DNA from: Intestinibacillus massiliensis
GTDB taxonomy: Bacteria; Bacillota; Clostridia; Oscillospirales; Butyricicoccaceae
Assembly: GCF_900155735.1 (NCBI RefSeq)
Contig: NZ_LT707060.1
Location: forward strand, 195,768-257,774
Length of the DNA: 62,007 nt
Direction of reading: 5' to 3'
Shown here: positions 7,150 to 62,007 of the stretch, piece after piece
How the letters are laid out: the number at the start of each line of letters is the position of its first letter
How positions within the stretch are numbered: the stretch's first letter is position 1
The notes under the pieces: generated by a model
Told to the model about the DNA's origin: nothing
The model's database searches: none
Seen by the model: only the letters and a program-made list of their open reading frames with translations
Made by a program: the position numbers and the translations under genes

Positions 7150-7500
7150 TTATGTTGCATGGCGCGGTTCGCCGAAGCGCTGGAAATGCACGACTTCGCG
7201 TGCCCGCAGGAACTTGATCGGATCGCGCACGTCCGGGTCATCGATCAGGCGCAGCAGGTTATCGTAGGTCGTGCGAGCCTTCTGCTCCGCAGCGAGATCC
7301 TCGAACAGGTCCGTGATCGCGTCGCCCTTGGACTGGAAGGTCATGGCGCTCCACGGCGTGCCGGAAGCGAACTGCGGATAAATGCCGGTCGTGTGGTCGA
7401 CGTAGTAGGCATCGTAGCCGCCGGCCTTGATCTCCTCAGGCGTCAGGTTGCGCGTGAGCTGGTAAACGATTGCGGCAATCATTTCCAGATGAGCCAGTTC
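7150..7500 (-). pseudogene. cotJC: cotJC 3' part (spore-coat manganese-catalase family), split by prophage 1
   Basis: The C-terminal two thirds of CotJC, a manganese-catalase-like spore coat protein. Reading from 7500: ELAHLEMIAAIVYQLTRNL, then YDAYYVDHTTGIYP, SKGDAITDLFEDLAAEQKAR and FLRAREVVHFQRF to the stop at 7150. The metal-ligand pattern ExxH (ELAHLE) and the later EQKAR and REVVH are kept. The 5' side ends exactly at the AGTTC junction with prophage 1, and the preceding codons continue at 50811-50822 (GAT ATC GGT ACC). There is no frameshift or stop, so the gene is separated rather than decayed. It is non-functional as it stands unless the elements excise. Confidence 0.9.
7496..7500. 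other. attL of prophage 1 (AGTTC core)
   Basis: Left attachment junction. Sequence to the left (GATGAGCC) is cotJC; sequence to the right (GTCAGAACATG) is phage, ending 18 bases before the integrase stop codon. The same AGTTC recurs at 40942-40946. The deduced attP (GTGCGCT-AGTTC-GTCAGAAC) is an imperfect dyad, as is usual for serine integrases. Confidence 0.75.
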
Positions 7501-7518
7501 GTCAGAACATGAATGTTA

Positions 7519-9081
7519 TCAGTGATTGCAAGAAAGAGAAAAACGGGGGAAAATCGTTAGTTCCATGTCGTTTTCGGTACTCCAACGGTTGTTTGTAGTC
7601 TTCATATAGATCACCTTTTCTAAGACGGAGGTTAGAAGCCGGTTTTTTTCTTCATCGGTTTCGGCATAGCCGTATACGTCAAGGACATGCTGCACTTTTG
7701 GGATAAGCTGCTTTTTTGTTTCGCGTTCATTCTCAAGGGCGGATACCTGATTTTCAAGATCAGATATAGACGCCTCCAAATTATTACGCTGGGCGGTAAG
7801 CTGCTGCTGACGTTCTAAAAATACGGCGGTTGTATAAACGCCTTGTTCAACGAGTTCATAGGCGCGTTGCTGCATTTTGAATAGCTCGTTTTGCTTCTCA
7901 TATAGGCTGTGCAGGCTTTGCTTTAAGCCCTCAAGCTCCGCGTTTAAGCGCCGGTCGGGGTCAATGCTCGTTTCGGTTTTGTAGTCTTCTAGCCATTTGC
8001 GCAGAGATTCAAGCACGGCCTGTTCCACAATGCGCAGATCAGAAGACACGTTCGCGCAACCGGCTTGCGTACAAATCAAGGTGGCTTGCCGGCCTGAATT
8101 ATACGGACGGCGTTGAAGCTTTCGGCCACACATGCCGCAGACGATCAGGCCAGACAGGGGATTTTGCATAATCTTCTTTTTTGGAACCGGGCGGCGGGGA
8201 TGTAACATAAAAAGCTGCTGAACCCGGTCAAATGTTTCCTCATCAACAAGCGGTTCATGCAACCCTTTTACTTTCTCATAATTTTTTGACCAAGGGCGGC
8301 TTGTAGTGATTTCCCCGTTTTTCATCTGTTTTACATGGGCGCGCCGTCCCCAGATGAGATACCCACAATAAACGGGGTTCTGTAAGATGCGTTGAACGGT
8401 TGATATTGTCCATTCGTTCCCTTTGAAGGTTGGGACGTGTTGCTGGTTTAAGCGCGTGGCAATTTTAGCAACGCCTAAATGGTTTTCCGTATCGGCATAC
8501 CACGCGAATATTTGCCGGACGACCGGCGCTTGCTCGGGATGGGGGGTTAAAATAAATCCCTTTTCCTTTGGAAGCTTTTCGCGCAAATAGCCATAGGGCG
8601 GGATATTTCCGGGGTATTTTCCCTCACGGATAGACGATATGCGCCCGGCCTGCAAACGCCGGTTGATCGTTTTATATTCCCGGCGGGACATGAACAAACC
8701 AAATTCAAAGTATTCCTGGTCATATTCGTTTGTGGGGTCATAGGTTTTCATGGGGGTTACTATCAGGGTATTGGAATAGAAAAACGTTTTTTGTACGCGG
8801 CCTTGATCGCTGGTATCGCCGCGCGCAAGGCGTTCCACTTCCACCACAAGCACGCCGTCCCAAAGACCGGCCTCTACCTCACTTAGAAGCTGCTGCATGA
8901 CGGGGCGGGCGGAAATGGTCTCACCGGAAACCAGCTCGCGGTATATATCCGTTAGGGGGAGCTTTTGCCGCTGGGCAAGGTCTATTAGTATTTTTTCATG
9001 CCGGGCGAAGGTATCGCCCTCCCCGCGCTGCTCGGCTTCCTGGTCGGCGCGGGATTTTCGCAAATAAGCGACGTAAGGCAT
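7519..9081 (-). CDS. Large serine integrase of prophage 1
   Basis: Serine recombinase of 520 aa that would integrate and excise prophage 1 at the nearby attL. It has a catalytic N-terminal domain (YLRKSRADQEAE with Ser10, VEVERLARGD), a recombinase domain (GYLREKLPKEKGF onward), a zinc ribbon (VCGMCGRKL ... CTQAGCANV) and a long C-terminal coiled coil (about residues 390-480). The ATG at 9081 has an AAAGGAAAGG site; the frame upstream to 9135 has none. Its 3' end lies 18 bases from the crossover site, typical for such integrases. It is transcribed away from the repressor region. Confidence 0.92.
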   Translation of the reverse strand: MPYVAYLRKSRADQEAEQRGEGDTFARHEKILIDLAQRQKLPLTDIYRELVSGETISARPVMQQLLSEVEAGLWDGVLVVEVERLARGDTSDQGRVQKTFFYSNTLIVTPMKTYDPTNEYDQEYFEFGLFMSRREYKTINRRLQAGRISSIREGKYPGNIPPYGYLREKLPKEKGFILTPHPEQAPVVRQIFAWYADTENHLGVAKIATRLNQQHVPTFKGNEWTISTVQRILQNPVYCGYLIWGRRAHVKQMKNGEITTSRPWSKNYEKVKGLHEPLVDEETFDRVQQLFMLHPRRPVPKKKIMQNPLSGLIVCGMCGRKLQRRPYNSGRQATLICTQAGCANVSSDLRIVEQAVLESLRKWLEDYKTETSIDPDRRLNAELEGLKQSLHSLYEKQNELFKMQQRAYELVEQGVYTTAVFLERQQQLTAQRNNLEASISDLENQVSALENERETKKQLIPKVQHVLDVYGYAETDEEKNRLLTSVLEKVIYMKTTNNRWSTENDMELTIFPRFSLSCNH

Positions 9082-9170
9082 ACGAACACCTTTCCTTTCA
9101 TTTAAATTTATGCTATTATGAAAGGGCATAGACACCCTTTAAATTGCCTGTTTACGGGGTTATGCACTGG

Positions 9171-50809: not shown

Positions 50810-50816
50810 CGGTACC
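50810..50816. other. Right attachment junction of element 3 (CGGTACC)
   Basis: Element sequence TTGATACCA on the left meets cotJC GGTACCGATATCGG on the right. Read leftwards, the cotJC frame runs DIGT and then into the element as VVSKLPPA and a stop, which is the native C-terminus of the element 3 recombinase. Confidence 0.78.
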
Positions 50817-50915
50817 GATATCGGTCAGGATACCTTTGGTCTCCTTATAGGGCATCGTATAGCGCTGGTTCAGGTAGCGCATGGATGCGCCGAGCTCGCC
50901 GTCCGGACCGCCAAA
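50811..50915 (-). pseudogene. cotJC: cotJC internal segment, isolated between two elements
   Basis: Thirty-five codons of CotJC: FGGPDGELGASMRYLNQRYT followed by MPYKETKGILTDIGT. They correspond to about residues 30-65 of the full protein, just before the segment at 7150-7500. Both ends are cut: on the left by element 3 at GGTACC, on the right by the third element near the FGG codons (the upstream codons read DYLFLR and are foreign). The frame is intact. The missing first 30 or so codons should lie beyond position 62007. Confidence 0.88.
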
Positions 50916-50919
50916 TCGT

Positions 50920-50963
50920 AAAAAGAGATAGTCCGAAGAATGTTTCGGATTATCTCTTTTTTT
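50920..50963. terminator. Strong bidirectional terminator after the third-element integrase
   Basis: AAAAAGAGATAGTCCGAA pairs with TTTCGGATTATCTCTTTTT (one G-T mismatch); A- and T-runs on both sides. It ends the minus-strand integrase and isolates it from the cotJC fragment. Confidence 0.85.
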
Positions 50964-52434
50964 ATGCGTAATATTGGATTTGGAAGCAATTATTCTTGCG
51001 GTCAAAAATGATGCATCGGATGAAACGGCGCAGGGCGTCGTTTTTGTCCGCGTCCGTGACGCCTTCGTCACGCAGTTTTTGGAGGGCGTCCTGGTGCGCG
51101 GCGGCGAATGCCGCCGGGGTGACCGCTTCCCCCGGCGCGGGCGCGCTTTCACGAAGGGCGGCGATGCGTCCCTCGATCGCGGCCTTGCGCGCGCGGTATT
51201 CCTCCAGGGTATCGACGCCGGCCTCATACGCTTCGCGGATGCGTTCCAGCTTCTGTTCCTCGCGGGCAATCTGCCGGCCGAGGAGCTGGGCGGCGTTGCT
51301 GCTTTTCATCCGTTGCCCGTCGGCCGCCATCACGCCAAAGTTGAGAGTCTGGAAATCCTGCTCGATCCGGTCGAATACGGCCTCGGTAATGGCCGCAAGC
51401 TGGATGCTGTGCGATTCCGGGCATTGGCCGCGCGCATACCGGTGGCACTGCACCGAGGGGCCGCCCTTCGCCGTGCGGGTCTTGGACGAGAGCACGAGCG
51501 TAGACCCGCAGCTCGAGCAGCGCAGCAAGCCCTTGAGGGCGAACATGTGCCCGTCCCGGCGGCCGTGCGGGGCGTATTTACGCTTCTGCTCGTCAAGCAG
51601 GTGCTGCACCTCGTCATACAGCCCGCGCGGGATGAGGGGCGCGTGCGTGCCGTCAACGGTGATGGTATCGGGGTTATCCCAGTCGCGCCGCGTGCGGCCG
51701 GTCGGCGTCCAGCGCACCTTCCCGATATAAACCGGGTTGCGCAGGATGTACTCCACGGAGCGGTTCTCCAGCGGGTTGCCGAAGCGGGTGCGGATGCCGA
51801 TCGCGTTCAGCTCGCGGGCGATGGTGACCAGCGGCTTGCCGCCGGCGAAGTCCTCAAAGATTTTACGGACGACCGGCGCGGCATCCGGGTCTTCTGCATA
51901 TTCGCCGTCCTGCATCCGATATCCCATGGGCGCGTAGGTGTTCGGCTTGCCCTCCTTGGCGCGCTGCGTCATACCGCGGCGCACCTCGCCCGCAAGGTTG
52001 ATGCTGTAATATTCGTCCATGGCTTCGATCATGGCCTCGATGATGATGGACATGCCCTCGTCGCCGATCGGCTCGCTGACGGACACGACCTCGATGCCCA
52101 GCTCGCGCCGGAGCATGGACTTATACAGGATGCTGTCCTCGCGGTTGCGGGCGAAACGGGAGAACTTCCAGAGCAGCACCACGTCGAAGGGGCGGGGCTT
52201 GGTCTTGGCAACGCCGATCATGCGCATGAACCCGTCGCGCTTGTTCGTGGACTTGCCGCTGATGCCCTCGTCCACGAAGACATATTCATCCGGGATAACG
52301 ATGTTGTTCGCCTTGGCGTATTTCCGGATTTCTACGAGCTGCGATTCGGGGGAGTATTCCACCTGGTCGTCGGTCGAGACGCGGATATAAGCCGCGCCGA
52401 TGCGGATATCGTCAGGGGTGGGGGTGGGTTGCAT
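50962..52434 (-). CDS. Large serine integrase of the third element
   Basis: 490-aa serine recombinase. Catalytic domain GAAYIRVSTDDQVEYSPESQ (Ser20), GISGKSTNKRDGFMRMI, LLWKFSRFARNREDS; recombinase domain PMGYRMQDGEYAEDPDAAPV; zinc ribbon LRCSSCGSTLV ... QCHRYARGQCPES; coiled coil at about 400-450. The ATG at 52434 has GGAAGGAGG nine bases upstream; the frame to 52524 is not needed. Its first 43 codons are present twice more, truncated, at 54176-54316 and 55740-55883. Confidence 0.92.
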   Translation of the reverse strand: MQPTPTPDDIRIGAAYIRVSTDDQVEYSPESQLVEIRKYAKANNIVIPDEYVFVDEGISGKSTNKRDGFMRMIGVAKTKPRPFDVVLLWKFSRFARNREDSILYKSMLRRELGIEVVSVSEPIGDEGMSIIIEAMIEAMDEYYSINLAGEVRRGMTQRAKEGKPNTYAPMGYRMQDGEYAEDPDAAPVVRKIFEDFAGGKPLVTIARELNAIGIRTRFGNPLENRSVEYILRNPVYIGKVRWTPTGRTRRDWDNPDTITVDGTHAPLIPRGLYDEVQHLLDEQKRKYAPHGRRDGHMFALKGLLRCSSCGSTLVLSSKTRTAKGGPSVQCHRYARGQCPESHSIQLAAITEAVFDRIEQDFQTLNFGVMAADGQRMKSSNAAQLLGRQIAREEQKLERIREAYEAGVDTLEEYRARKAAIEGRIAALRESAPAPGEAVTPAAFAAAHQDALQKLRDEGVTDADKNDALRRFIRCIIFDRKNNCFQIQYYA

Positions 52435-52488
52435 GGCGTGGCCTCCTTCCGGTGTGAAAATGCCCGCCCAGGTGGGCGGGCGGTTTTT
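52303..52488. repeat. Integrase 5'-end repeat, copy R1 (part of the intact gene)
   Basis: Covers integrase codons 1 to about 43, its ribosome site and an upstream GC hairpin (GCCCGCC/GGCGGGC with a T-run). The same block recurs at 54128-54368 and 55692-55905. Confidence 0.85.
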
Positions 52489-52489
52489 A

Positions 52490-53674
52490 TTATTGGTTCG
52501 CACTCGAATACAGTGCGTAGACATAGGGCACGGTTTTGTTTGACCCTAGTACGGTTACATATGTAATAGTTCCCGAATAGGTTCCATAAAATTCGATTTT
52601 ATCATTTTCAAGTATTTTAGGATCACTTTTTTGCTTTCCAACGTAACTGACATAAATAATGTCTATATCACCAGCGTCAACCAATATAGTATCCCCATCT
52701 ACTTGTAGTACGGAACCAGATATTTTAATGTTTTTACCCTTATAATCTTCCGGCCTACGTGCGAGTTCCTCATAGGAATAGGTTTCACAGGTTTGTATAA
52801 AAGCTTTACGCTTTTCGTTGTATGCTTTTACCCAGTCGGCCGTGGTATTTTCTGACGCTTCTTTGGCGGCATCTCCAACTGACTCTAAAAAGCAATCATT
52901 TAAATCCAATGTTCCTTGAAAAGGAACTCCGACCCCCGTCACTACGCCAGAGATTATAACATATTCACCATCGGCACATTGTGCTTTCATTTCAAGTGGG
53001 AAGCCGGAAAAAGAAATATTTAATGCTGATTCTCCTGTTTGCCGTTCTAGAAAGGAGAATGTGGAAAAGTAGTCGCTCATGTTGGATATTTGTCCGGCGA
53101 CACGTACGCGGGTTTTATTATATTTATCTGGATTTTCTGTGATTTCCATATAATCTGTTAATGGCAAGGTGCTTGCAATGCTTTCATTTTTTAACCGCCA
53201 TTGTTGTGTTTGCTCTTGTACAATTTCTTGAGCCTGATTTCCACTGTTGATGACAGAAGCGTTTCGGAGATAATAAGATGAAGTCCATTCTCCGCTGACT
53301 AAAATACAATCATTGACCGCATAAACATCTTTTGCCTTCTTCTGGTATTGATCCGGTAATATATCAACAGCAAAGCTTGATAGGCTGGACTTAGTGCGTT
53401 CTTTGAAAACGGCCTTGCCACCAAAATCAAAATCTGAAATCCGCCCGGCTACTTTGATTTTCTGTCCAACGTAGGCATCCGGGTCGTCCAACACGTCGAT
53501 ATAGTCGAGAAGAGTATCGCTTGTTTGGTTTTCCGCCGCTTTATTGTCCTCAGGTGCTGCCGGGGCTGGTTCTACCGTATTAGTTTCTAAATCCGCGCTT
53601 TCAGGTGCTTGGGTACAAGCTGTTAAACTGCAAAGGATTGACAAAGCAGCTAGCAGCGCAACGATTCGTTTCAT
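52490..53674 (-). CDS. Lipoprotein with three OB-fold-like repeats (cargo gene A)
   Basis: 394-aa exported lipoprotein. Signal peptide MKRIVALLAALSILCSLTAC with lipobox LTAC, then an acidic linker. Three similar units follow: DDPDAYVGQKIKVAGRISDF, ENPDKYNKTRVRVAGQISNM and RRPEDYKGKNIKISGSVLQV, each beginning a beta-rich OB-like domain. The gene is AT-richer than the elements around it. It lies directly upstream of the integrase on the same strand, the place where temperate phages of Gram-positive hosts often keep superinfection-exclusion lipoproteins; that role is inference. Confidence 0.75.
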   Translation of the reverse strand: MKRIVALLAALSILCSLTACTQAPESADLETNTVEPAPAAPEDNKAAENQTSDTLLDYIDVLDDPDAYVGQKIKVAGRISDFDFGGKAVFKERTKSSLSSFAVDILPDQYQKKAKDVYAVNDCILVSGEWTSSYYLRNASVINSGNQAQEIVQEQTQQWRLKNESIASTLPLTDYMEITENPDKYNKTRVRVAGQISNMSDYFSTFSFLERQTGESALNISFSGFPLEMKAQCADGEYVIISGVVTGVGVPFQGTLDLNDCFLESVGDAAKEASENTTADWVKAYNEKRKAFIQTCETYSYEELARRPEDYKGKNIKISGSVLQVDGDTILVDAGDIDIIYVSYVGKQKSDPKILENDKIEFYGTYSGTITYVTVLGSNKTVPYVYALYSSANQ

Positions 53675-53801
53675 AGATGACCCTCCTCACATACGCATCC
53701 ATTAATTAAGTTTTATTTAACTGTAGTAACGATTTTTCCGGAAAGTCTATTCCATACAAGTTCAATTGGTATATCACCAGTCATTTTAATATCTAGATAT
53801 G

Positions 53802-54107
53802 TTAATCTAAATGAGCTTTTAAACTCAATTCAATGGTTTGATCATCAATAGGCAAGTTTACTGTTTCAGTATGACCGTTTTCGATAGAAAGCCTGATTGA
53901 ATTATCAATAATTACCTTAATCGGAGGGTTGCCTAAATATACTTGACTCGAACGATCAATTGTAAGCTTAAAGTCGGTATGCACAACAGTACCTGAAACA
54001 ACGGATGCCCCGCAGGACGAACAGAAGCTGCCATCGTCAGAAATGCTTTCCCCGCATTCCCTAAAAACGTAGTGCAGCAGCCTTTCTGAATAAATATAAT
54101 GAAGCAT
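53802..54107 (-). pseudogene. Remnant of a zinc-ribbon protein
   Basis: Reads RECGESISDDGSFCSSCGAS, a zinc-ribbon start whose first Cys is lost (FRECG where CxxCG is expected), followed by LTIDRSSQVYLGNPPIKVII and LPIDDQTIELSLKAHLD. The frame ends early, with possibly related sequence beyond it. It looks like a decaying second gene of cargo block A. It could still be expressed from the 101-codon frame, but without a good ribosome site. Confidence 0.45.
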
Positions 54108-54127
54108 CTTTATGTGTACCAGTTTAA

Positions 54128-54368
54128 CATAACAAGGGAGGATTTACCAGAATGATCCCTCAAATTCCCCAGGTCTTAACAAAATTCCATGATGTTATTC
54201 GCCTTTGCGTATTTCCGGATTTCTACGAGCTGTGATTCGGGGGAGTATTCCACCTGGTCGTCGGTCGAGACGCGGATATAAGCCGCGCCGATGCGGATGC
54301 CGTCAGGGGGGTGCATGGCGTGGCCTTTTTCCGGTGTGAAAATGCCCGCCCGGGTGGGCGGGCGGTTG
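54128..54368. repeat. Integrase 5'-end repeat, copy R2
   Basis: Contains the truncated integrase start (54176-54316), the GC hairpin (54344-54366) and about 50 bases beyond the break that are also shared with R3 (AACAAGGGAGGATTTACCAG region). Lies between cargo blocks A and B. Confidence 0.85.
54176..54316 (-). pseudogene. Truncated integrase 5' end (46 codons), copy 2
   Basis: Starts MHPPDGIRIGAAYIRVSTDD and follows the intact integrase to KYAKANNI, then ends MEFC and stop. The catalytic serine is present but the rest of the protein is gone. The ribosome site is weakened (GGAAAAAGG). Confidence 0.8.
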
Positions 54369-54369
54369 G

Positions 54370-55635
54370 TTATGCCAGAATATGCAAAACTACTTGCGTA
54401 TCTGTAACGTTATATACCCATGTAGCTGTTGTTCCTACAGATACGGCATTTCTTTCCGTAGTAATATCACTAAGGGCGAGCTCATCCTCGATTTTGTCCT
54501 GTGTAGTGGTATCGTACTCAAACATCAGTAGCATGCAGGCTAATGTCGCACCAGAAAATTTTTGGGCTTCAGTACTCTCAAGCTTATTTTTTTCAATAAT
54601 GTACGCAACGTTATATAAATCCCCGGTGCTATCCTGGGTAGAAGTGGAGATTTTAATGCCTGGAATCAAATTATAATACGTGACGGTTGTCGCTGGTAAA
54701 GATGCGGTAGCTTCTATTTTTTCGGGATTTGCTTCAGGGGTAAGATTGACAGTAAACCCATATTTAGATTCTGTATCCATTCCGCTGTAAACGGTACTAA
54801 GTGTAGATAGAAATGACTCGGCAGATACACCAAACGTAGCAAAATTAGGGTAATTTTGTTTATCATCTCCGGTAGTTGTCCCTTGTGAACTATTCTGGTC
54901 GTTGACAGACGGATCTGCAGTGAAGGAATAGCTTAGAATTTCATAGTCCAAAACATAGCCCGCATCAAGAGGGACGGCAAGTACTTTTGAAGCAGAACTG
55001 CTGAAAGGCTTACTATTCTCTGCGGTATAGGTTGTCGAATCTAAAATTGTGCCAGAAGCATCTTTGGCAACGATTCGCACTTCGCCAGTGAAGTATTTAT
55101 CGGTACGATTATAAACATCTACACCTAATTCACGTTTGCTGTGGTCATAAGAATAGACCCCGTAATCGGTGGAAGTAATGCGAATGTATTGCTTTACGTT
55201 TGTGTCATTTACCTCAGGTGTGGTGGCAAATGTTTCTGAAAATTTGTAATCGACAATATCATAGCTGAAATTATATTCCGAACTTCTTTCAGCAAGAAAT
55301 GGCGTAGATGTGTAATCCTTTGGGTTCATATTGTCCAAAAAAACAGTATGTTCACCAATCTGTTTCCCGCTTTGGTCTGTAACGGTTAAGTGGAGTTCAG
55401 CGGTTAAATACTGGTCAGAGTTGTTGGTGATACTGGCCGCCACATGCTCGAAATTGTCTAGTGTGGATTGTAAATCTGAAAACCGAACATCAATATTTTT
55501 ATCAGTAGGCGTTGCTGCCATTGATTCTGAAGAATGATTAGGAATTGTCCCTTCATCGGCTGCAGGCGCCTGCCCACATGCTGCGAGAGATATTAGCAGC
55601 GATAGTGCTGCGAGTAATGCCACAAATTTTTTCAT
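54370..55635 (-). CDS. Lipoprotein with Ig-like (FxLYD-type) domains (cargo gene B)
   Basis: 421-aa exported lipoprotein. The signal peptide MKKFVALLAALSLLISLAAC is nearly the same as in cargo A, lipobox LAAC. Two beta-sandwich units resemble FxLYD/DUF-type Ig folds (AASITNNSDQYLTAELHLTV and GVDVYNRTDKYFTGEVRIVA). A different C-terminal domain follows (FGVSAESFLSTLSTVYSGMD, ending TQVVLHILA). Shared signal peptide with unrelated mature part suggests cassette-style exchange. Position next to the integrase suggests lysogenic conversion or superinfection exclusion (inference). Confidence 0.72.
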   Translation of the reverse strand: MKKFVALLAALSLLISLAACGQAPAADEGTIPNHSSESMAATPTDKNIDVRFSDLQSTLDNFEHVAASITNNSDQYLTAELHLTVTDQSGKQIGEHTVFLDNMNPKDYTSTPFLAERSSEYNFSYDIVDYKFSETFATTPEVNDTNVKQYIRITSTDYGVYSYDHSKRELGVDVYNRTDKYFTGEVRIVAKDASGTILDSTTYTAENSKPFSSSASKVLAVPLDAGYVLDYEILSYSFTADPSVNDQNSSQGTTTGDDKQNYPNFATFGVSAESFLSTLSTVYSGMDTESKYGFTVNLTPEANPEKIEATASLPATTVTYYNLIPGIKISTSTQDSTGDLYNVAYIIEKNKLESTEAQKFSGATLACMLLMFEYDTTTQDKIEDELALSDITTERNAVSVGTTATWVYNVTDTQVVLHILA

Positions 55636-55691
55636 AGATATAACCCCCTATGCCTATTCCATTATCAATAGATTTATAAGTATCATTTTAA

Positions 55692-55905
55692 CATAGCAAG
55701 GGAGGATTTACCAGGACAATTCCTTATATTCTCCAGGTCTTAACAAAATTCTGTGATGCTGTTCGTCTTTTCGTATTTCCCAATTTCTACGAGCTGCGAT
55801 TCGGGGGAGTATTCCACCTGGTCGTCGGTCGAGACGCGGATATAGGCCGCGCCGATGCGGATGCCGTCAGGGGTGGGGTGCATGGCGTGGCCTCCTTCCG
55901 GTTAT
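55692..55905. repeat. Integrase 5'-end repeat, copy R3
   Basis: Third copy, with the truncated integrase start at 55740-55883 and the shared downstream tail. The GC hairpin is missing; instead the sequence runs into GGTTATTTATAGGGC. It marks the far end of the cargo array. Outside this copy, the gaps 55636-55691 and 55906-56003 hold no recognisable gene. Confidence 0.8.
55740..55883 (-). pseudogene. Truncated integrase 5' end (47 codons), copy 3
   Basis: Starts MHPTPDGIRIGAAYIRVSTD, diverges after LVEI (GKYEKTNSI instead of RKYAKANNI) and ends TEFC-stop at the same break as copy 2. The divergence suggests it derives from a related, not identical, integrase or has decayed longer. Confidence 0.8.
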
Positions 55906-56156: not shown

Positions 56157-56315
56157 ATGATGAAAAACGGCTGGTATTGCTGCCCAAAGTGTGGGAGGAA
56201 GCTGTTCCCGGTTGGAAAAACCACGTATATCCGGGATCTTGCTTACAAGTGCAAACACTGCAAAGAAAATTTCACAGTACAAGTTGAGCCACGAGCCTTT
56301 GAGCCAGGAGCCTGA
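56157..56315 (+). CDS. Com-like zinc-finger protein (52 aa)
   Basis: Small zinc protein with two CxxC pairs: WYCCPKCGRKLFPV and AYKCKHCKENFTV. Matches the Com family of Mu-like and PBSX-like elements; Mu Com is an RNA-binding translational activator of mom. Here there is no mom-like gene next to it, so its role may be control of the tail operon. TAGGAGG precedes the tandem ATGs. First gene of the rightward operon. Confidence 0.75.
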   Translation: MMKNGWYCCPKCGRKLFPVGKTTYIRDLAYKCKHCKENFTVQVEPRAFEPGA

Positions 56316-56427
56316 ACGCAAGCCGGATTGACCGGCCTGCGCCCAGGCTCTTTTGTTTTGCGGGAAGGGGGGATTACATGAGGGCAGTAAATAGGCAAAG
56401 GGGATGCCGCACGGAAAAGGGGGCTGT

Positions 56428-56880
56428 ATGATCTCAAAAAAGGAAATCTGGGAGGCACTGGAGAGGGTGCTTGCTGGACGTTTCCCGGGTATACGAATAT
56501 ACCGGGGCACGCCCCCAGACGGCTTTGACCGGCCTGCACTTGCGCTCCTATCCGGCAAGCGGAAAGCCGTGCTGGGCGGGTGTGAGGATACGGCAGATGT
56601 CGTACAGGCGGTTATCATCCAGTGTATTGGGGAAACGGGGGCGGACGGCTTAGACGACACCGCCGACGCTGTGGAAGCGCTATTTTTACACGACGGCCTC
56701 CGCGTAGGCGGCCGCGTACTGCCGGTGCGGGATGTGCGCACAGTATGTGCGCCCAATACTGCGGATACCATCCTTGTTACGGTTAAATTACATTATTTAG
56801 ACGACCGCCCGCCGGCGGCGGAGGTGTTCCCACCAGCGGCGGAGGTCGTCGCAAACATTACTGCGAAGGAGGCACATTGA
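56428..56880 (+). CDS. Tail terminator-family protein (DUF6838-like, 150 aa)
   Basis: Starts MISKKEIWEALERVLAGRFP, has PDGFDRPALALLSGKRKAVL and the ending TADTILVTVKLHYLDDRPPA, fitting phage tail-terminator/completion proteins that cap the sheath-tube. The ATG at 56428 follows GGAAAAGGGGG; an earlier ATG at 56404 is less likely. The next gene (sheath) starts one base after its stop. The call rests on gene order plus weak family text. Confidence 0.6.
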   Translation: MISKKEIWEALERVLAGRFPGIRIYRGTPPDGFDRPALALLSGKRKAVLGGCEDTADVVQAVIIQCIGETGADGLDDTADAVEALFLHDGLRVGGRVLPVRDVRTVCAPNTADTILVTVKLHYLDDRPPAAEVFPPAAEVVANITAKEAH

Positions 56881-56881
56881 T

Positions 56882-57940
56882 ATGCCGTTACCAACCATCA
56901 ATATTGCATTCAAGGAAGCCGCGTCCGACGCGATCAAGCGGTCGCAGAAGGGGACTGTGGCGCTTATCCTCAAGGATGCCGCGGCGAGCGGGGCGCTGAC
57001 GCTGACAAGCGCCGCACAGATCCCGAAGGCGCTGGCCGCGGACAATGCGTCCTACATCGCGCGGGCGTTCCTCGGCCATACGAACGCGCCGCGCCGTGTG
57101 CTCGCCTATGTGCTGGGCGCGGACGCCGCGAACCTGGACGACGCGCTGGCCTGGCTCGGCACGCAGACATTCGACTACCTGTGTGCGCCGCCGGACGTAA
57201 CGGCGGAGCAGGCCGGGGCGGTCAAGGCATGGATTTTGGAACAGCGCGCCGAGCACCGCATTTACAAGGCCGTACTGCCGCACCTGGCCGCGGATACGGA
57301 GGCCGTGGTAAACCTGACCACGGACGGGTGCAAGGTCGGCGGTGTGACGCTGGACGCGGCCGCCATGTGTTCCCGCATTGCCGGGCTGATTGCGGGTACG
57401 CCGATGGCGAACAGCTGCACCTACGCGCCGCTGCCCGAGCTGGCGGATATCGGGCGGCTGACACAGGCCGCGGGCGACGCAGCGGTCGACAACGGGGAGT
57501 TTATCCTGATCCATGACGGCGTGAAGGTCAAGGTCGGCCGCGCGGTGAACAGCCTGAAAACCCTGCCGGCCAGCAAAAGCAAGGTCTATAAAAAGATCAA
57601 GATCGTCGAGCTGCTGGACATGATCGACAACGACATCCGCGTAACGGCGGCGGATACCTATATCGGCCGGGGCAACAGCTACCAGAACAAGCTGGTACTG
57701 GTAACGGCGATCACGACCTATTTCCAGCAGCTTGAATCCGAAGGGCTGTTACAGCCGGGCAGCACGGTGGACATCGACGTGGAAGCGACGCGCGAATACC
57801 TGGTGCAGCAGGGCGTGGACGTTTCCGAGCTGGCCGACCAGCAGATCAAGGAGCACAGCACGGACGACAAGGTATTCCTGACCGCGTCGATCGTGCCGCT
57901 GGACGCGATCGAGGACGTTAGCCTCAATATCATGATCTAA
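56882..57940 (+). CDS. Contractile tail sheath protein
   Basis: 352-aa sheath subunit. MPLPTINIAFKEAASDAIKR at the start and KRSQKGTVALILKDAAASG are typical of the clostridial (PBSX/phiCD-like) short sheath group. The C-terminal domain has DNDIRVTAADTYIGRGNSYQNK and LTASIVPLDAIEDVSLNIMI. It would form the contractile outer cylinder. Its length is normal for this group. Followed by a terminator-like hairpin and the toxin-antitoxin locus rather than directly by the tube gene, which is unusual. Confidence 0.92.
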   Translation: MPLPTINIAFKEAASDAIKRSQKGTVALILKDAAASGALTLTSAAQIPKALAADNASYIARAFLGHTNAPRRVLAYVLGADAANLDDALAWLGTQTFDYLCAPPDVTAEQAGAVKAWILEQRAEHRIYKAVLPHLAADTEAVVNLTTDGCKVGGVTLDAAAMCSRIAGLIAGTPMANSCTYAPLPELADIGRLTQAAGDAAVDNGEFILIHDGVKVKVGRAVNSLKTLPASKSKVYKKIKIVELLDMIDNDIRVTAADTYIGRGNSYQNKLVLVTAITTYFQQLESEGLLQPGSTVDIDVEATREYLVQQGVDVSELADQQIKEHSTDDKVFLTASIVPLDAIEDVSLNIMI

Positions 57941-57945
57941 AACGG

Positions 57946-57972
57946 AAAAGCCCCGCCGGGAAGGCGGGGCGG
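57946..57972 (+). terminator. Hairpin after the sheath gene
   Basis: GCCCCGCC and GGCGGGGC form a stem around GGGAA, followed by GGGAATTTG; weak T-run, so partial termination or mRNA stability element between sheath and tube genes. Confidence 0.45.
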
Positions 57973-57976
57973 GAAT

Positions 57977-58004
57977 TTGACAAGAACGGCGTCTTTGCTA
58001 TAAT
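57977..58004 (+). promoter_or_regulatory. Promoter of the small hydrophobic peptide (toxin) mRNA
   Basis: TTGACA at 57977-57982, 16-bp spacer, TATAAT at 57999-58004: a consensus housekeeping promoter inside the late tail operon. The transcript would start near 58011 and have a 70-base leader before the peptide start. Confidence 0.8.
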
Positions 58005-58009
58005 AAAAG

Positions 58010-58266
58010 CAAGGCGCTGTCATAGACGGCGGTCAGTCATTTCCCCCAGCGCATTTTATGCGGAGGGAGGTGATAGCGGATGTGGAAGAAAATCGCGAGA
58101 TTTTTGTTATGCACAGTGGTTTTGCTGTACATATTTACCATAAACGCGCGTTGACCGCCCGGCTGGTACCCGAGCGGTCAACTTGATTGACTGAACGTGA
58201 GGCTGGCCGCCATATGGCAGCGCCCTTTTGTATTTTTATGATAGCATAGCGCCGCGCCGAAGTCAA
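58010..58266 (-). ncRNA. Probable antisense RNA (antitoxin) to the small peptide mRNA
   Basis: A minus-strand promoter, TTGACT (58266-58261), 17-bp spacer, TATCAT (58243-58238), starts a transcript near 58231 that would run leftwards through the toxin 3' region and coding part. A hairpin GTTGACCGC/GCGGTCAAC at 58151-58183 lies in the overlap. The toxin mRNA could end at the hairpin plus T-rich tract near 58205-58237. The 3' end of the antisense RNA is not clear, so the left limit is approximate. Confidence 0.55.
58080..58154 (+). CDS. Small hydrophobic peptide (24 aa), probable type I toxin
   Basis: MWKKIARFLLCTVVLLYIFT-INAR: basic start, one membrane helix, polar end, the standard shape of type I toxins (TxpA/BsrG/Fst class). 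It is preceded by GGAGGGAGGTGATAG, a strong ribosome site. It has its own consensus promoter and is overlapped by an antisense promoter from the right. It lies between sheath and tube genes, unrelated to tail building. Toxic action (membrane damage) is inferred from the class; the sequence itself is not a named family to me. Confidence 0.6.
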   Translation: MWKKIARFLLCTVVLLYIFTINAR

Positions 58267-58312
58267 GGCGGGGCGCTTTTTCGCGCCCGGGATGATAGGA
58301 AGGATAGATATT

Positions 58313-58744
58313 ATGGATTCTGCAAAAAGGGTAATGAGCGGCACGCACGGCCACCTGTGGCTTGAGGGCGAAAAGGTCGGCGAGTGCAGCGCCTTTCAGG
58401 CCAAGATGGCGTTTAACAAGGAAGACGTGAGCATGGACGGCGAAATGGCCGTCGACGTCAAGGTGACTTCCACCAAGGGCACCGGCAGCATGACGCTTTA
58501 CAAGGTGTCCTCCCGTATGGCGCAGTTCATTGGAAGCCGCATCATGGACGGGCAGGATGTGCGCTTCACGCTGATCTCCGAACTGGACGACCCGGACGCC
58601 TACGGCGCGGAGCGCGTCTCTATCGGCAACGTGTCCATGGACGACCTGACGCTGGCGGACTGGAAGCGCGCTTCCATCGGCACGGTGGAATGCCCGTTCA
58701 CATTCACACGCTTCAAGTTCCTAGATGAGGTGGACGCACGATGA
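58313..58744 (+). CDS. Tail tube protein (XkdM-like)
   Basis: 143-aa inner-tube subunit. MDSAKRVMSGTHGHLWLEGE, then GECSAFQAKMAFNKEDVSMD, KVTSTKGTGSMTLYKVSSRM and SRIMDGQDVRFTLISELDDP, typical of the PBSX XkdM tube family. The ATG at 58313 follows AGGAAGG; an upstream ATG at 58292 is weaker. Overlaps the chaperone gene by four bases. Confidence 0.9.
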   Translation: MDSAKRVMSGTHGHLWLEGEKVGECSAFQAKMAFNKEDVSMDGEMAVDVKVTSTKGTGSMTLYKVSSRMAQFIGSRIMDGQDVRFTLISELDDPDAYGAERVSIGNVSMDDLTLADWKRASIGTVECPFTFTRFKFLDEVDAR

Positions 58745-59142
58745 GCACCGGGACGCAGCGCAATGCGCTGGAAATCCTGCTCGGGATGGAACCGCCGAAG
58801 GCGCGCACGGCGCGCGTGAAGCTGCTGCAGCTTTCCGAAACGGCGGGCGAGGACGTATATTTTGATATCCGGGCGCTAGGCTATGACCGCGTGCGCGAGA
58901 TACAGCGCATGGAATCCGGCGCGGAAGGCAATTTCCAAGCCGCGGTGATTTTAGCCGGCGTGACGCAGCCGAACCTGAGCGACCCCGAACTGCTGGAAAA
59001 GTACGGTGCGCCGACCCCTTATGAGGTGCTGCCGAAATTCCTGTCCGCGGGCGAGATCGAGGAGCTGTGCCGCCGCATCGAATTGCTGTCCGGTTACCGG
59101 CAGAACGTGACCGAACTCGTGAAGGACGTTAAAAAAAAGTAA
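58741..59142 (+). CDS. Tail assembly chaperone (XkdN-like), short form
   Basis: 133-aa chaperone that would coat the tape measure during tail assembly. NALEILLGMEPPKARTARVK, then FDIRALGYDRVREIQRMESG and VLPKFLSAGEIEELCRRIEL. It ends in NVTELVKDVKKK on an A-rich slippery sequence. A longer form is made by frameshifting (see the next entry). Coupled to the tube gene by an ATGA overlap. Confidence 0.85.
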   Translation: MSTGTQRNALEILLGMEPPKARTARVKLLQLSETAGEDVYFDIRALGYDRVREIQRMESGAEGNFQAAVILAGVTQPNLSDPELLEKYGAPTPYEVLPKFLSAGEIEELCRRIELLSGYRQNVTELVKDVKKK

Positions 59143-59285
59143 CGGCGGACGCGGACGCGCAGCTCATGTACTGGGCGTTTGACCGGCACCACATCCTGCC
59201 GTCTGCGTTCGCCGCCCTGCCGGACAGCGACAAGGTGGTTTTGCGGGGCTTTTTTGAACTTTGGCTGGACATGCAAAAGGCATAG
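58741..59285 (+). CDS. Tail assembly chaperone, long form made by -1 ribosomal frameshift
   Basis: At 59127-59136 the message reads GTT-AAA-AAA-AAG-TAA; the heptamer A-AAA-AAG is a classic -1 slippery site right before the stop. In the -1 frame translation goes on for about 48 codons: VTADADAQLMYWAFDRHHIL, then LPDSDKVVLRGFFELWLDMQ-KA and stop at 59285. This matches the G/GT-type chaperone pair in long-tailed phages. The extension has no start of its own and good coding character, which supports the frameshift. Confidence 0.78.
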
Positions 59286-59326
59286 GAAAAGACCGGCGCA
59301 AGGCCGCCGGGCTGGAATGCAAGGTA

Positions 59327-59449
59327 TCAATGGAAGAGCGATAACATCCAGATTGTGATCAGCAAACAAACGATGAGCATGCCGCCGACAAGCCAGAAGT
59401 ATACCGTATTGTTTCGGTAACACTGCTTTAATTGTTGCAAAAGGCTCAT
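59327..59449 (-). CDS. Antisense small membrane protein (40 aa) in the tail operon
   Basis: MSLLQQLKQCYRNNTVYFWL, then VGGMLIVCLLITIWMLSLFH: a short polar start and one long membrane helix. It is on the strand opposite the tail genes, between chaperone and tape measure. It has its own promoter (TTGTTC, 16-bp spacer, TATAAT, at about 59470-59500 on the minus strand) and an AAAGGCGG ribosome site. An independent unit of this kind is a moron. Possible roles are exclusion of other phages or a toxin-like peptide; neither is shown. Confidence 0.65.
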   Translation of the reverse strand: MSLLQQLKQCYRNNTVYFWLVGGMLIVCLLITIWMLSLFH

Positions 59450-59513
59450 TAAACCGCCGCCTTTCTATTTTTATTATATCACACTATGCGCCCAGAACAA
59501 GGGGGGATGTAAT

Positions 59514-61553
59514 ATGCCGGATACAAGCATCGCGATTGCCGCGAAGGATAGCACGGAAGCGCTCCGTGGCATACAGAGGACGGTAGAACCGCTCAATAAG
59601 GGGATAGGTGAAGTACAGTCCAAACTGGATGTGCTGAGCCGGACGAAGGTTACGTTGAATATCGGCTTTGGCGCTGCTCAAAAAGAGCTCGCCGGTATGC
59701 GGCAAGCATTTTCAGAAGTGAAAACAAGCGCAGGCAATTTGCAAAACACGAACCTATCTGTGGATCACCTGACGGGGGCGTTAGGATCGGTCGGTAGCAC
59801 GGCGCGTGTGGCAAGGTCGGAGCTGAAAGATACGCTTGGGATGTTTTCCAAAGCTACGGCGCAAATTGGCACGGGTCCTAGGGACACTTTAGCTGGGCTC
59901 GGCAAACGGATGCGTGACGCAGGTGCGCTCGATTGGATCGAACAGGCTGGGCTACAGGCGGCTGACCTCCATCTGAAAAGCGCGCTTGGACAGGCAGACG
60001 CCGCGCCCGTATCCGGCGCGATGTCCGGAGCACTTTCCGGTGCGGCGATGGGGACGGCAATCGGCGGCCCGGGAGTTGGGACGTTGGTAGGCGCGGTGGC
60101 GGGCGGCCTGCTCGGGGCTGCGCAGGGCGCTATGCAAGAGAACCAAGCAAAGGATGATGCGTTTAAAGCGTATGTGAAGGAACAGGCGGAAGCGCGGTTT
60201 GCCGAACGGGACGAAATGGTGGTATCCGGCTCAGCAGAAGCGGCGCAGCGTGAAGACGACCGCATTATCTTTTCCCAAATGCTTGGGGAAGAAGCAGCAG
60301 GCAGTTTCCAGCGCGGGCTGGAAGACAGGGCGAAGGCCGGCGCGGTACAGTATGGCGAATTAGCGGCAATCAGTAAATCGATGCGCGGTTACGACTACGA
60401 TGAGCGCGGGCTTTTAAGTACATTGGATGCAGTAAGTAGCGCCGGGCTAGCGCTAGGGATGGATACAGGGCAAATGGCCGGCATCGCCCAGGCGCTCGGC
60501 AGCATAAAAAACATGGGCACCGTGACAGATGCCGCGCTGGCGGGACTTCATGCCTATGGCATCGATGCATATGGGATTCTCGCTGCGGCGCGCGGCACGA
60601 GCCGGGAAGCGCTGAAGGGACAGTCAGCCAGAGGGGAGCTGGGCGGCAGCGCTACGGCAGCCGATCTCATAACCGGGATAGACGCTGCTTACAGCCCGGC
60701 GGCACAGGCAAGGTCGCAAAGCTTTTCCGGGTTGTCTGCACGCCTTGCCAGCCTAGAGCGGGAACAGCAGAATGCGGCGGGCGAGGGATTCAACGAATTA
60801 CGGTCGGCCGGCCTTGAAAAACAAATCGAATGGTACGGCGGCGAAGGCGGCATAAAAATGGAAGAGGTCAACCGGGCGATGGGGGCATTCGCCGCCAGCC
60901 AGGAAAACGACCGGGAAGGCCGGATCCGCGGCGCAATGGACGTCATGATGGCGTCCGATGAGTTTGTTGAAGCCCAGAAGACGGCGAACAACCCGGAAGC
61001 TTCTACAGAGGAACAGCAGGCCGCGTGGGCAAAGATGGGCGAAGTGCTTGCACGCGCCAAAACAATGGGCATTAATCAGTATAACGCCTCCGAAGGGGCG
61101 CAGCTCATGAGGCAAAGCGAGGAGGCACTGATTGGGGAAATCCGTGAGGATGCGTCGGCGGACCAAGCGTATTGGGATGCGGGTTATGCACGCAGCCAGA
61201 ACTACTCCAAAGGGCTGGCGGCGGGGATGCTTGATGCGAATATCCGGGCGCTTGCAAACGGTGCGGTGGAAACGCTTGACCCCAAAACGGCATATTATCA
61301 GTACGGCATAACGCCAACCGGCCACGCCGCCGGGCTCCCGCGCGTGCCGTATGACAATTACCCGGCGCTGCTGCACCAGGGCGAGCGCGTGCTCACCGCC
61401 CGCGAGGCACGGCAGCAGGACGCGGGCGGCGCGGGAAGCGTGGTCGTCAATGTCAGCGGCCTTACCGTGCGCGAGGAGGCCGACATCGGCAAGGTCGCGC
61501 AGGAACTGGCACGGCTCATTACGCTGGGCAAGGCCGCCCGCGCGCCGCAGTAA
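59514..61553 (+). CDS. Tail tape measure protein
   Basis: 679-aa tape measure that sets tail length. Starts MPDTSIAIAAKDSTEALRGI, a coiled-coil N-terminus, a Gly/Ala-rich hydrophobic segment (GAMSGALSGAAMGTAIGGPG, about 165-205), long Ala/Glu helices, and the C-terminus HAAGLPRVPYDNYPALLHQG-ERVLTA, common to clostridial tape measures. Short compared with PBSX XkdO, so a tail of roughly 100 nm would be expected. GGGGGGATG start site. Confidence 0.85.
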   Translation: MPDTSIAIAAKDSTEALRGIQRTVEPLNKGIGEVQSKLDVLSRTKVTLNIGFGAAQKELAGMRQAFSEVKTSAGNLQNTNLSVDHLTGALGSVGSTARVARSELKDTLGMFSKATAQIGTGPRDTLAGLGKRMRDAGALDWIEQAGLQAADLHLKSALGQADAAPVSGAMSGALSGAAMGTAIGGPGVGTLVGAVAGGLLGAAQGAMQENQAKDDAFKAYVKEQAEARFAERDEMVVSGSAEAAQREDDRIIFSQMLGEEAAGSFQRGLEDRAKAGAVQYGELAAISKSMRGYDYDERGLLSTLDAVSSAGLALGMDTGQMAGIAQALGSIKNMGTVTDAALAGLHAYGIDAYGILAAARGTSREALKGQSARGELGGSATAADLITGIDAAYSPAAQARSQSFSGLSARLASLEREQQNAAGEGFNELRSAGLEKQIEWYGGEGGIKMEEVNRAMGAFAASQENDREGRIRGAMDVMMASDEFVEAQKTANNPEASTEEQQAAWAKMGEVLARAKTMGINQYNASEGAQLMRQSEEALIGEIREDASADQAYWDAGYARSQNYSKGLAAGMLDANIRALANGAVETLDPKTAYYQYGITPTGHAAGLPRVPYDNYPALLHQGERVLTAREARQQDAGGAGSVVVNVSGLTVREEADIGKVAQELARLITLGKAARAPQ

Positions 61554-61567
61554 GGGAGGGGCCTGCC

Positions 61568-62007
61568 ATGCTACGCAAATACATATTCAAAAACAACGTG
61601 ACCGGGCAGGAGGTCGTCCTCCCGGTGACGCCGGGTAGCTTCCAGATTGACCGCGGCGTGCCGGTCGAGACCGTAGACCTGCACGGTTTCGGCGAATACG
61701 CGATGGCGGGCGCAGGGATGCAGCTTTTTTCCGAAACGCTGGAGTTTATGCTGCCGCGGCATGATTACCCGTTCAATCAGCCGGGCACAAACCTTGACCC
61801 GTACTATTACATCGAGTTTTTCCAGCTCACGTCCGACCGCCGGCAGACCTGCCGCTTTGTCATCTCGGACACGCCGACCATCTGCGACGTGCTGCTCGAA
61901 AACCTGCAATACGGCGAGCGGGACGGCACGAACGACGTGTACTGCGTGCTGACCATGCACCGCTGGCGGCCGCTCGGCGCGGTGCGCACCGTGGGGGCGG
62001 CGGCAGG
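61568..62007 (+). CDS. LysM-type baseplate/tail protein (XkdP-like), partial
   Basis: The first 146 codons of a tail protein: MLRKYIFKNNVTGQEVVLPV, then TPGSFQIDRGVPVETVDLHG and YYYIEFFQLTSDRRQTCRFV. This N-terminal domain fits the XkdP / gp53-like family, which normally ends in a LysM domain beyond the window edge. It begins 14 bases after the tape measure stop with GGGAGGGG before it. Confidence 0.7.
   Translation, partial: MLRKYIFKNNVTGQEVVLPVTPGSFQIDRGVPVETVDLHGFGEYAMAGAGMQLFSETLEFMLPRHDYPFNQPGTNLDPYYYIEFFQLTSDRRQTCRFVISDTPTICDVLLENLQYGERDGTNDVYCVLTMHRWRPLGAVRTVGAAA

Follow-up and report, generated by a model that had tools for sequence, protein, structure and literature searches.

Truncated copies of an integrase start separate lipoprotein genes in a tail-encoding element of Intestinibacillus massiliensis

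Three integrase starts and the genes between them

The DNA analyzed here is a 62,007-nucleotide stretch of Intestinibacillus massiliensis (contig NZ_LT707060.1, positions 195,768 to 257,774), referred to as the window and numbered from its first base. Toward its right-hand end, an intact gene for a large serine integrase is preceded by two cargo cassettes, each headed by a truncated copy, or stub, of the integrase's own 5′ end. Read along the minus strand, the order is R3 stub, lipoprotein B, R2 stub, zinc-ribbon remnant, lipoprotein A and whole integrase, built from the following features (GC, guanine plus cytosine):

50962..52434, minus strand: intact large serine integrase, 490 residues, with Resolvase, Recombinase and zinc-ribbon domains (Pfam and PHROG matches)
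52300..52485, minus strand: R1, integrase codons 1–45 with the ribosome site and the upstream GC hairpin leader
52490..53674, minus strand: lipoprotein A, 394 residues, with lipobox, 41% GC
53700..54107, minus strand: frameshifted zinc-ribbon gene, 36% GC
54125..54190, minus strand: post-break segment common to both cassettes, copy adjoining R2, 38% GC
54191..54316, minus strand: R2, truncated integrase 5′ end of 42 codons, ribosome site degraded
54370..55635, minus strand: lipoprotein B, 421 residues, with lipobox, 41% GC
55689..55754, minus strand: post-break segment common to both cassettes, copy adjoining R3, 36% GC
55755..55895, minus strand: R3, truncated integrase 5′ end of 43 codons (55755–55883) with an intact ribosome site, without the hairpin leader

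Matches to Pfam PF00239, PF07508 and PF13408 and to PHROG phrog_95 (integrase) identify the intact gene as a large serine integrase of phage type. R1 has its start codon at 52434, its break at 52300 and a hairpin stem at 52461–52482; the leader of R2, hairpin included, extends to ~54367. Used as a query in a genome search, R1 retrieved R2 at 89% identity (expectation value, E, 1.2e-57) and R3 at 90% (E 7.8e-56), and no fourth copy was found in the 2.84 Mb genome searched, which leaves three direct copies in all. A preliminary description of the window, made from its letters, had proposed one intact and two truncated integrase starts with the zinc-ribbon remnant and lipoprotein A in one interval and lipoprotein B in the other; alignment and the genome search confirm the repeats, and the contents of both intervals are as described. 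The base composition of the cargo (36–41% GC) lies well below that of the stubs (60%) and the integrase (63%).

R2 and R3 leave the integrase at an identical codon (NNI/NSI), followed by one differing residue and EFC-stop; both stubs are open frames of 46–47 codons. Beyond the break, the two cassettes have 65–80 bases in common, somewhat more than the ~50 first reported, and the alignment of this segment, which takes in the final few stub bases, reaches 84% identity over 86 bases (E 2.4e-20). The segment gave only weak matches (best E 0.003) in 86 other genomes of the family, in IMG/VR its exact 19-base core turned up solely in this element, and a promoter role for it would be a guess. On the other side, R1 and R2 share a ~50-base upstream leader with a GC hairpin, located just 5′ of the ribosome site, which R3 lacks. 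The ribosome site itself, AAGGAGG, is intact in R1 and R3 and reads AAAAAGG in R2, where the earlier statement that every copy retains it does not hold.

The three copies differ in how they have diverged. Over 36 aligned codons, R1 and R2 show three base differences, all synonymous, and R1 and R3 show seven in six codons, four of them non-synonymous and all four among the last ten; R2 and R3 differ at 8 of 108 nucleotides. The synonymous fraction of random single changes is 0.235, so three out of three would arise by chance with a probability of ~0.013. Because the R1–R2 changes are all synonymous and the R1–R3 changes are not, the pattern fits R2 being the younger stub, one that may have belonged to a working integrase more recently than R3.

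The two lipoproteins have related signals, matching at 15 of the 20 residues that lead up to the cysteine; their lipoboxes were called by pattern and inspection of the sequence rather than with a dedicated signal-peptide program. As first described, the mature parts differ, the one exception being a weak local alignment, signal included, with 27% identity over 146 columns. In Pfam, lipoprotein A scores marginally above the cut-off for DUF5818 and Slp and below it for tRNA_anti-like, and lipoprotein B has no match above the cut-off. Lipoprotein B has relatives in two adjacent lipoproteins of a prophage in another genome of the family (G045), one matching residues 1–217 and the other residues 241–421, at 23–26% identity (E 2.0e-7 and 2.5e-9 in the genome search). 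The zinc-ribbon remnant aligns in two frames with a zinc-ribbon gene that neighbours the repressor gene in an Agathobaculum prophage (L010). A third small lipoprotein of 94 residues is encoded past the window, near the other end of the element (74693–74977 in window numbering), and its signal resembles that of lipoprotein B.

Stubs and cargo in related integrase loci

Loci with related integrases were collected from GTDB genomes and IMG/VR, and the 5 kb upstream of each integrase were searched for copies of that integrase's 5′ segment (−70 to +290) and of three other segments of equal length. Of 113 loci entered, 97 were kept after the removal of four duplicates (L080, L182, L183, L197) and of 12 others in which the integrase start was incomplete or was preceded by fewer than 800 bases; outside the test stood L078 (23% identity), second copies of L007–L012 and the short-contig loci of G429 and G081. 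The 5′ segment recurs upstream on the same strand in six loci by threshold, and none of the three other segments does so in any of the 97. Four of the six are clear on alignment: L020, L042, L075 and L079, the last being the window's own element. Remnants are thus seen only from the end of the integrase gene that lies next to the cargo. The 18-base match in L060 lies within an ftsH-like reading frame and was discounted as a chance hit; that in L090 is not a stub but a duplicated leader hairpin beside a YoeB-type toxin. Reverse-strand matches upstream numbered one (L075, 16 bases), and the downstream control gave one among the 71 loci with enough sequence (L022, an inverted 71-base copy). An intermediate run on 74 loci returned the identical six upstream matches. 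An earlier whole-locus run on 80 loci had also picked up inverted hairpin matches adjoining the start in L033 and L034 and the N-termini of other recombinases in L009, L023 and L026.

The integrases of L075, L042 and L020 are just 47–49% identical, and their loci repeat the same design with different cargo, which supports the proposal that cargo builds up behind a constant integrase start. The L075 stub spans 91 bases at 96% identity, corresponding to the leader and ~25 codons; that of L042 has 22 exact bases within ~44 similar ones and ends near codon 19; that of L020 covers 46 bases at 93%, mostly leader with ~4 codons. Counted by eye on the alignments, each in its own numbering, the break therefore falls at codon 42–43 in the window, ~25 in L075, ~19 in L042 and ~4 in L020. 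Different break points among relatives had been named beforehand as a sign of unrelated insertions: they do differ from one locus to another, whereas within the window R2 and R3 share a single junction.

In L075 the cargo is a ToxN/AbiQ toxin (E 8e-46 and 8e-42) encoded on the opposite strand, with a 36-nucleotide tandem repeat in 2.9 copies ahead of it, the kind of repeat expected for a ToxI antitoxin RNA. L042 carries a PemK-like toxin with a SocA/Panacea antitoxin, and L020 an NYN-domain gene, with a PD-Lambda-1 gene upstream of its stub. A known toxin, antitoxin or nuclease-like domain therefore lies between stub and integrase in all three clear-stub relatives other than the window's element. 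The cargo is again lower in GC than the integrase, at 45% vs 59% in L075, 54% vs 61% in L042 and 35% vs 40% in L020. The presence of integrase stubs flanking accessory genes in these three relatives suggests serial addition beside the integrase.

Variable cargo between repressor and integrase is present at least in G006, L010, L011, G045, L090, L020 and the phages StB20, AP45 and A403, and thus also at loci where no stub marks it; the repressors of G006, L010, L011, G045 and L090 were confirmed by HTH_3. The order is repressor, lipoprotein, zinc ribbon and integrase in G006, and repressor, zinc ribbon, HSDR_N protein and integrase in L010; Staphylococcus phage StB20 has a regulator, a DUF5067 lipoprotein and a serine integrase. 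In G045 (C14:26135-28489 = L223:8135-10489), three tandem lipoproteins stand between a helix-turn-helix (HTH) repressor and a tyrosine integrase. They have similar signals, two are near-identical, and two are those matching the halves of lipoprotein B; the sheath of G045, at 55%, is the closest relative of the element's sheath found in the family. Because G045 shows them beside a tyrosine integrase, tandem lipoproteins with a common signal and different mature parts can fill this slot regardless of integrase type.

The element and its integration site

The array belongs to an element of ~24.5 kb inserted in the spore-coat gene cotJC, which is split after ~codon 31 (ITQLGG), its remainder beginning right after the integrase at ~50.88 kb. 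The other junction lies to the right of the window at ~75380 (~75.38 kb in window numbering), where cotJA, cotJB and the start of cotJC follow at ~75.4–76.0 kb; these names are ones we presume from recognition of CotJ sequences. Attachment (att) junctions are thus present at both ends, and an IMG/VR contig of much the same length as the element (24,194 bases) has the integrase and the lipoproteins at 100% identity. The following two features were assigned outside the array:

50811..50900, minus strand: att-site junction, integrase side of the element joined to cotJC (from ~codon 30)
56404..62007, plus strand, continuing past the window to ~68000: contractile tail module (sheath, tube, chaperone, long putative tape-measure gene)

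The tape-measure gene is so called from its position and length. Further genes of the element encode baseplate proteins, fibres, Vsr, an Eco47II-type endonuclease, a C5 methylase and a GGDEF-EAL protein, and a small HTH gene (HTH_26) lies at its far end. Of the genes called and scanned between 50.9 and 75.4 kb, none was recognised as encoding a head, portal or terminase protein; besides their matches to tail-fibre or unknown families, two fibre-like proteins show weaker ones to 'virion structural' families. Judged by this gene content, the element is a tail-only remnant, that is, a decayed, head-less prophage, or a tailocin-like island. The repressor has presumably been deleted, and the array is placed in the repressor–integrase slot by analogy with the relatives described above.

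Several observations concern the surroundings of these features. cotJC is cut again at ILTDIGT (window 7162–7506 and 50811–50882), the next part of the gene lying 43 kb away beside another large serine recombinase (7519–9135, minus strand), as if a second, 43-kb element or a rearrangement had split it. Related integrases in cotJC face both ways, those of L008, L010 and L011 opposite to those of L007, L009, L012, G006 (L136) and the window; their 3′ ends abut the 5′ part of cotJC and cotJB in some relatives and the 3′ part of cotJC in others. Between the array and the tail genes, a small Cys-rich protein is encoded at ~56158–56316 (plus strand); the G006 phage encodes a close relative (MIKNGWYCCPQCGRK) in its early region, and we take the protein to resemble Mu Com.

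Origin of the array

One-sided acquisition is the simplest reading, given that the integrase is always whole, that only 5′ ends remain as stubs and that the cargo is lower in GC. We infer, with a probability of roughly 0.6, that cargo and integrase were acquired together in one-sided events, and that the array grew later as phages with stubs underwent homologous recombination with one another. DNA of an incoming phage, with cargo and an integrase, would recombine with a resident phage, one end being homologous and lying inside the integrase gene, and the other joining illegitimately within the first codons of the resident integrase. The outcome would be one whole integrase with the new cargo directly upstream, the old 5′ end left as a stub, and older cargo further upstream. 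As R2 and R3 share one junction, a single founding event multiplied afterwards is indicated for the window: two phages that had this stub in common but differed in cargo would have undergone unequal homologous recombination at the integrase start, doubling the junction. Such an exchange would yield the observed order of hairpin leaders and shared segments. What can be seen of the one-sided events are their non-homologous junctions, present in four loci at different break points; the homologous end is not visible.

The common break of R2 and R3 and the 65–80 bases beyond it would also be produced by local tandem duplication of an integrase-start and lipoprotein unit within one phage, followed by divergence of the lipoproteins. 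The similar signals and weak local match of A and B, and the tandem lipoproteins with like signals in G045, are in keeping with such a duplication. However, lipoproteins with 27% local identity are far more diverged than stubs that differ at 8 of 108 nucleotides, one cassette has an extra zinc-ribbon gene, and the unrelated cargo of other types in L075, L020 and L042 would be left unexplained; we consider this origin unlikely, if the strongest of the competing explanations. Less probable still is that several complete integrases were once present and that deletions spared their 5′ ends alone. The element is clearly reduced, with no recognised head gene from 50.9 to 75.4 kb, and R3 has drifted at its 3′ end, both as decay would have it; but middle and 3′ fragments would then be expected too, and the three segments tested gave 0/97, nor would two separate deletions bring R2 and R3 to an end at one base.

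That shared end could instead mark a site near integrase codon 43 at which circular cassettes insert, or reflect serial integration of related elements, and archaeal SSV-type elements do split their own integrase gene on integration. The preliminary description had raised serial integration and loss of related elements, and had suggested the break after the NNI codons as a possible recombination site; neither is supported. The att site lies in cotJC, to the 3′ side of the integrase, and the stubs are internal to the element; they are therefore not products of att-site integration. The break falls at different codons in the relatives and shows no likeness to the att region (six comparisons with 300 shuffles each, fractions 0.07–0.84), and the post-break segment has just weak family matches and a core confined in IMG/VR to this element. 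We regard this origin as very improbable. Equally improbable is that the stubs are kept for a function, as short integrase peptides or leader elements regulating integrase or cargo. Their open frames of 46–47 codons and the wholly synonymous R1–R2 changes would suit such a role, but synonymous-only change is also expected if R2 was recently part of a working integrase; moreover, R2 has lost its ribosome site, R3 has its four non-synonymous codons in the last ten, and the L020 stub retains just ~4 codons.

Several findings count against one-sided acquisition itself. Clear stubs occur in just 4 of 97 loci, one of them the window's own, and in none of ten named phages (nine with distant serine integrases) hand-picked from 45 listed of 559 records. 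The L042 stub is short, the L020 stub consists mostly of leader, and the GC contrast in L020 is small. Taken alone, the window proves one illegitimate event, not two, as R2 and R3 have one junction between them. The homologous end of the event is unseen, as no relative predating the acquisition was found; an IMG/VR scan with the L075 integrase gave no relative and one with the L020 integrase a single one at 28% identity, and there are therefore no before-and-after pairs to compare. The interval from R3 to the tail genes has no called repressor gene. Lipoproteins are an uncommon cargo: a crude lipobox pattern flags one or other of the two genes closest upstream in 7 of 97 loci, of which just three look genuine on inspection. 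As for the cargo, a search of 86 other family genomes at E 0.001 returned nothing for lipoprotein A, a PADLOC search gave no match for either lipoprotein, and AlphaFold2 models of both (pLDDT, the predicted local confidence score, ~34) are too poor for use.

If one-sided acquisition is nevertheless correct, the stubs are scars that show the direction and order of gain; they can be searched for in any phage collection, which makes the mechanism directly testable. They would also flag candidate defence genes by position, since all three of the other clear-stub relatives carry toxin, antitoxin or nuclease-like domains there. More tentatively, and with some doubt on our part, the integrase start may act as a ratchet: whenever related phages meet, cargo plus integrase could replace the resident integrase from within, the ability to integrate always being kept and the 5′ stubs accumulating as an ordered record of gains.

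Comparison with known systems

Defence hotspots between repressor and integrase are already known, the mode of cargo gain being open (PMC9122126): P2-related prophages of Vibrionaceae have an anti-phage hotspot between cI and the integrase, alongside other P2/P4 defence hotspots (Rousset et al. 2022, PMC9122126). The locus in the window resembles the former in being a small repressor–integrase interval, which there shows a high turnover of defence genes, and differs in having a large serine integrase and lipoproteins. The portions of that report on hotspots describe no integrase stubs; cos ends are suggested as the recombination substrate for P2/P4, and the pathway is left open. Nor was a description of serial integrase stubs recognised in the retrieved portions of open-licence PMC papers on truncated or remnant integrases beside cargo, or on morons with partial duplication or illegitimate recombination.

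For the lipoproteins, the closest parallel is Ltp of phage TP-J34, a lipoprotein of the lysogeny module that is expressed in the prophage state and blocks DNA entry (PMC3952083). On the strength of these properties of Ltp, we lean slightly toward A and B being superinfection-exclusion proteins of the lysogen; a role tied to the tail module, such as protecting the producing cell, is possible. As with Ltp, the genes lie in a lysogeny module beside int and have the character of morons. Here, unlike Ltp, two tandem lipoproteins are separated by integrase stubs and no exclusion-lipoprotein domain is matched: Pfam, PHROG and PADLOC gave no match to a known exclusion protein for either, with no direct comparison with Ltp made.

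In its integration site, the element resembles the serine-recombinase or prophage-like elements skin and gin, which likewise occupy sporulation genes (PMC5025042, PMC5595907); the likeness concerns cotJC and not the stubs. The nearest counterpart to the proposed mechanism is found in the arrays of type VI secretion system (T6SS) immunity genes and Rhs orphans, for which homology-facilitated illegitimate recombination has been proposed (Kirchberger et al. 2017, PMC5361080). There, too, an anchored, one-sided recombination would leave parts of the displaced gene behind; in those bacterial loci the remnants are displaced 3′ ends and immunity genes, whereas here they are 5′ ends of a phage integrase.

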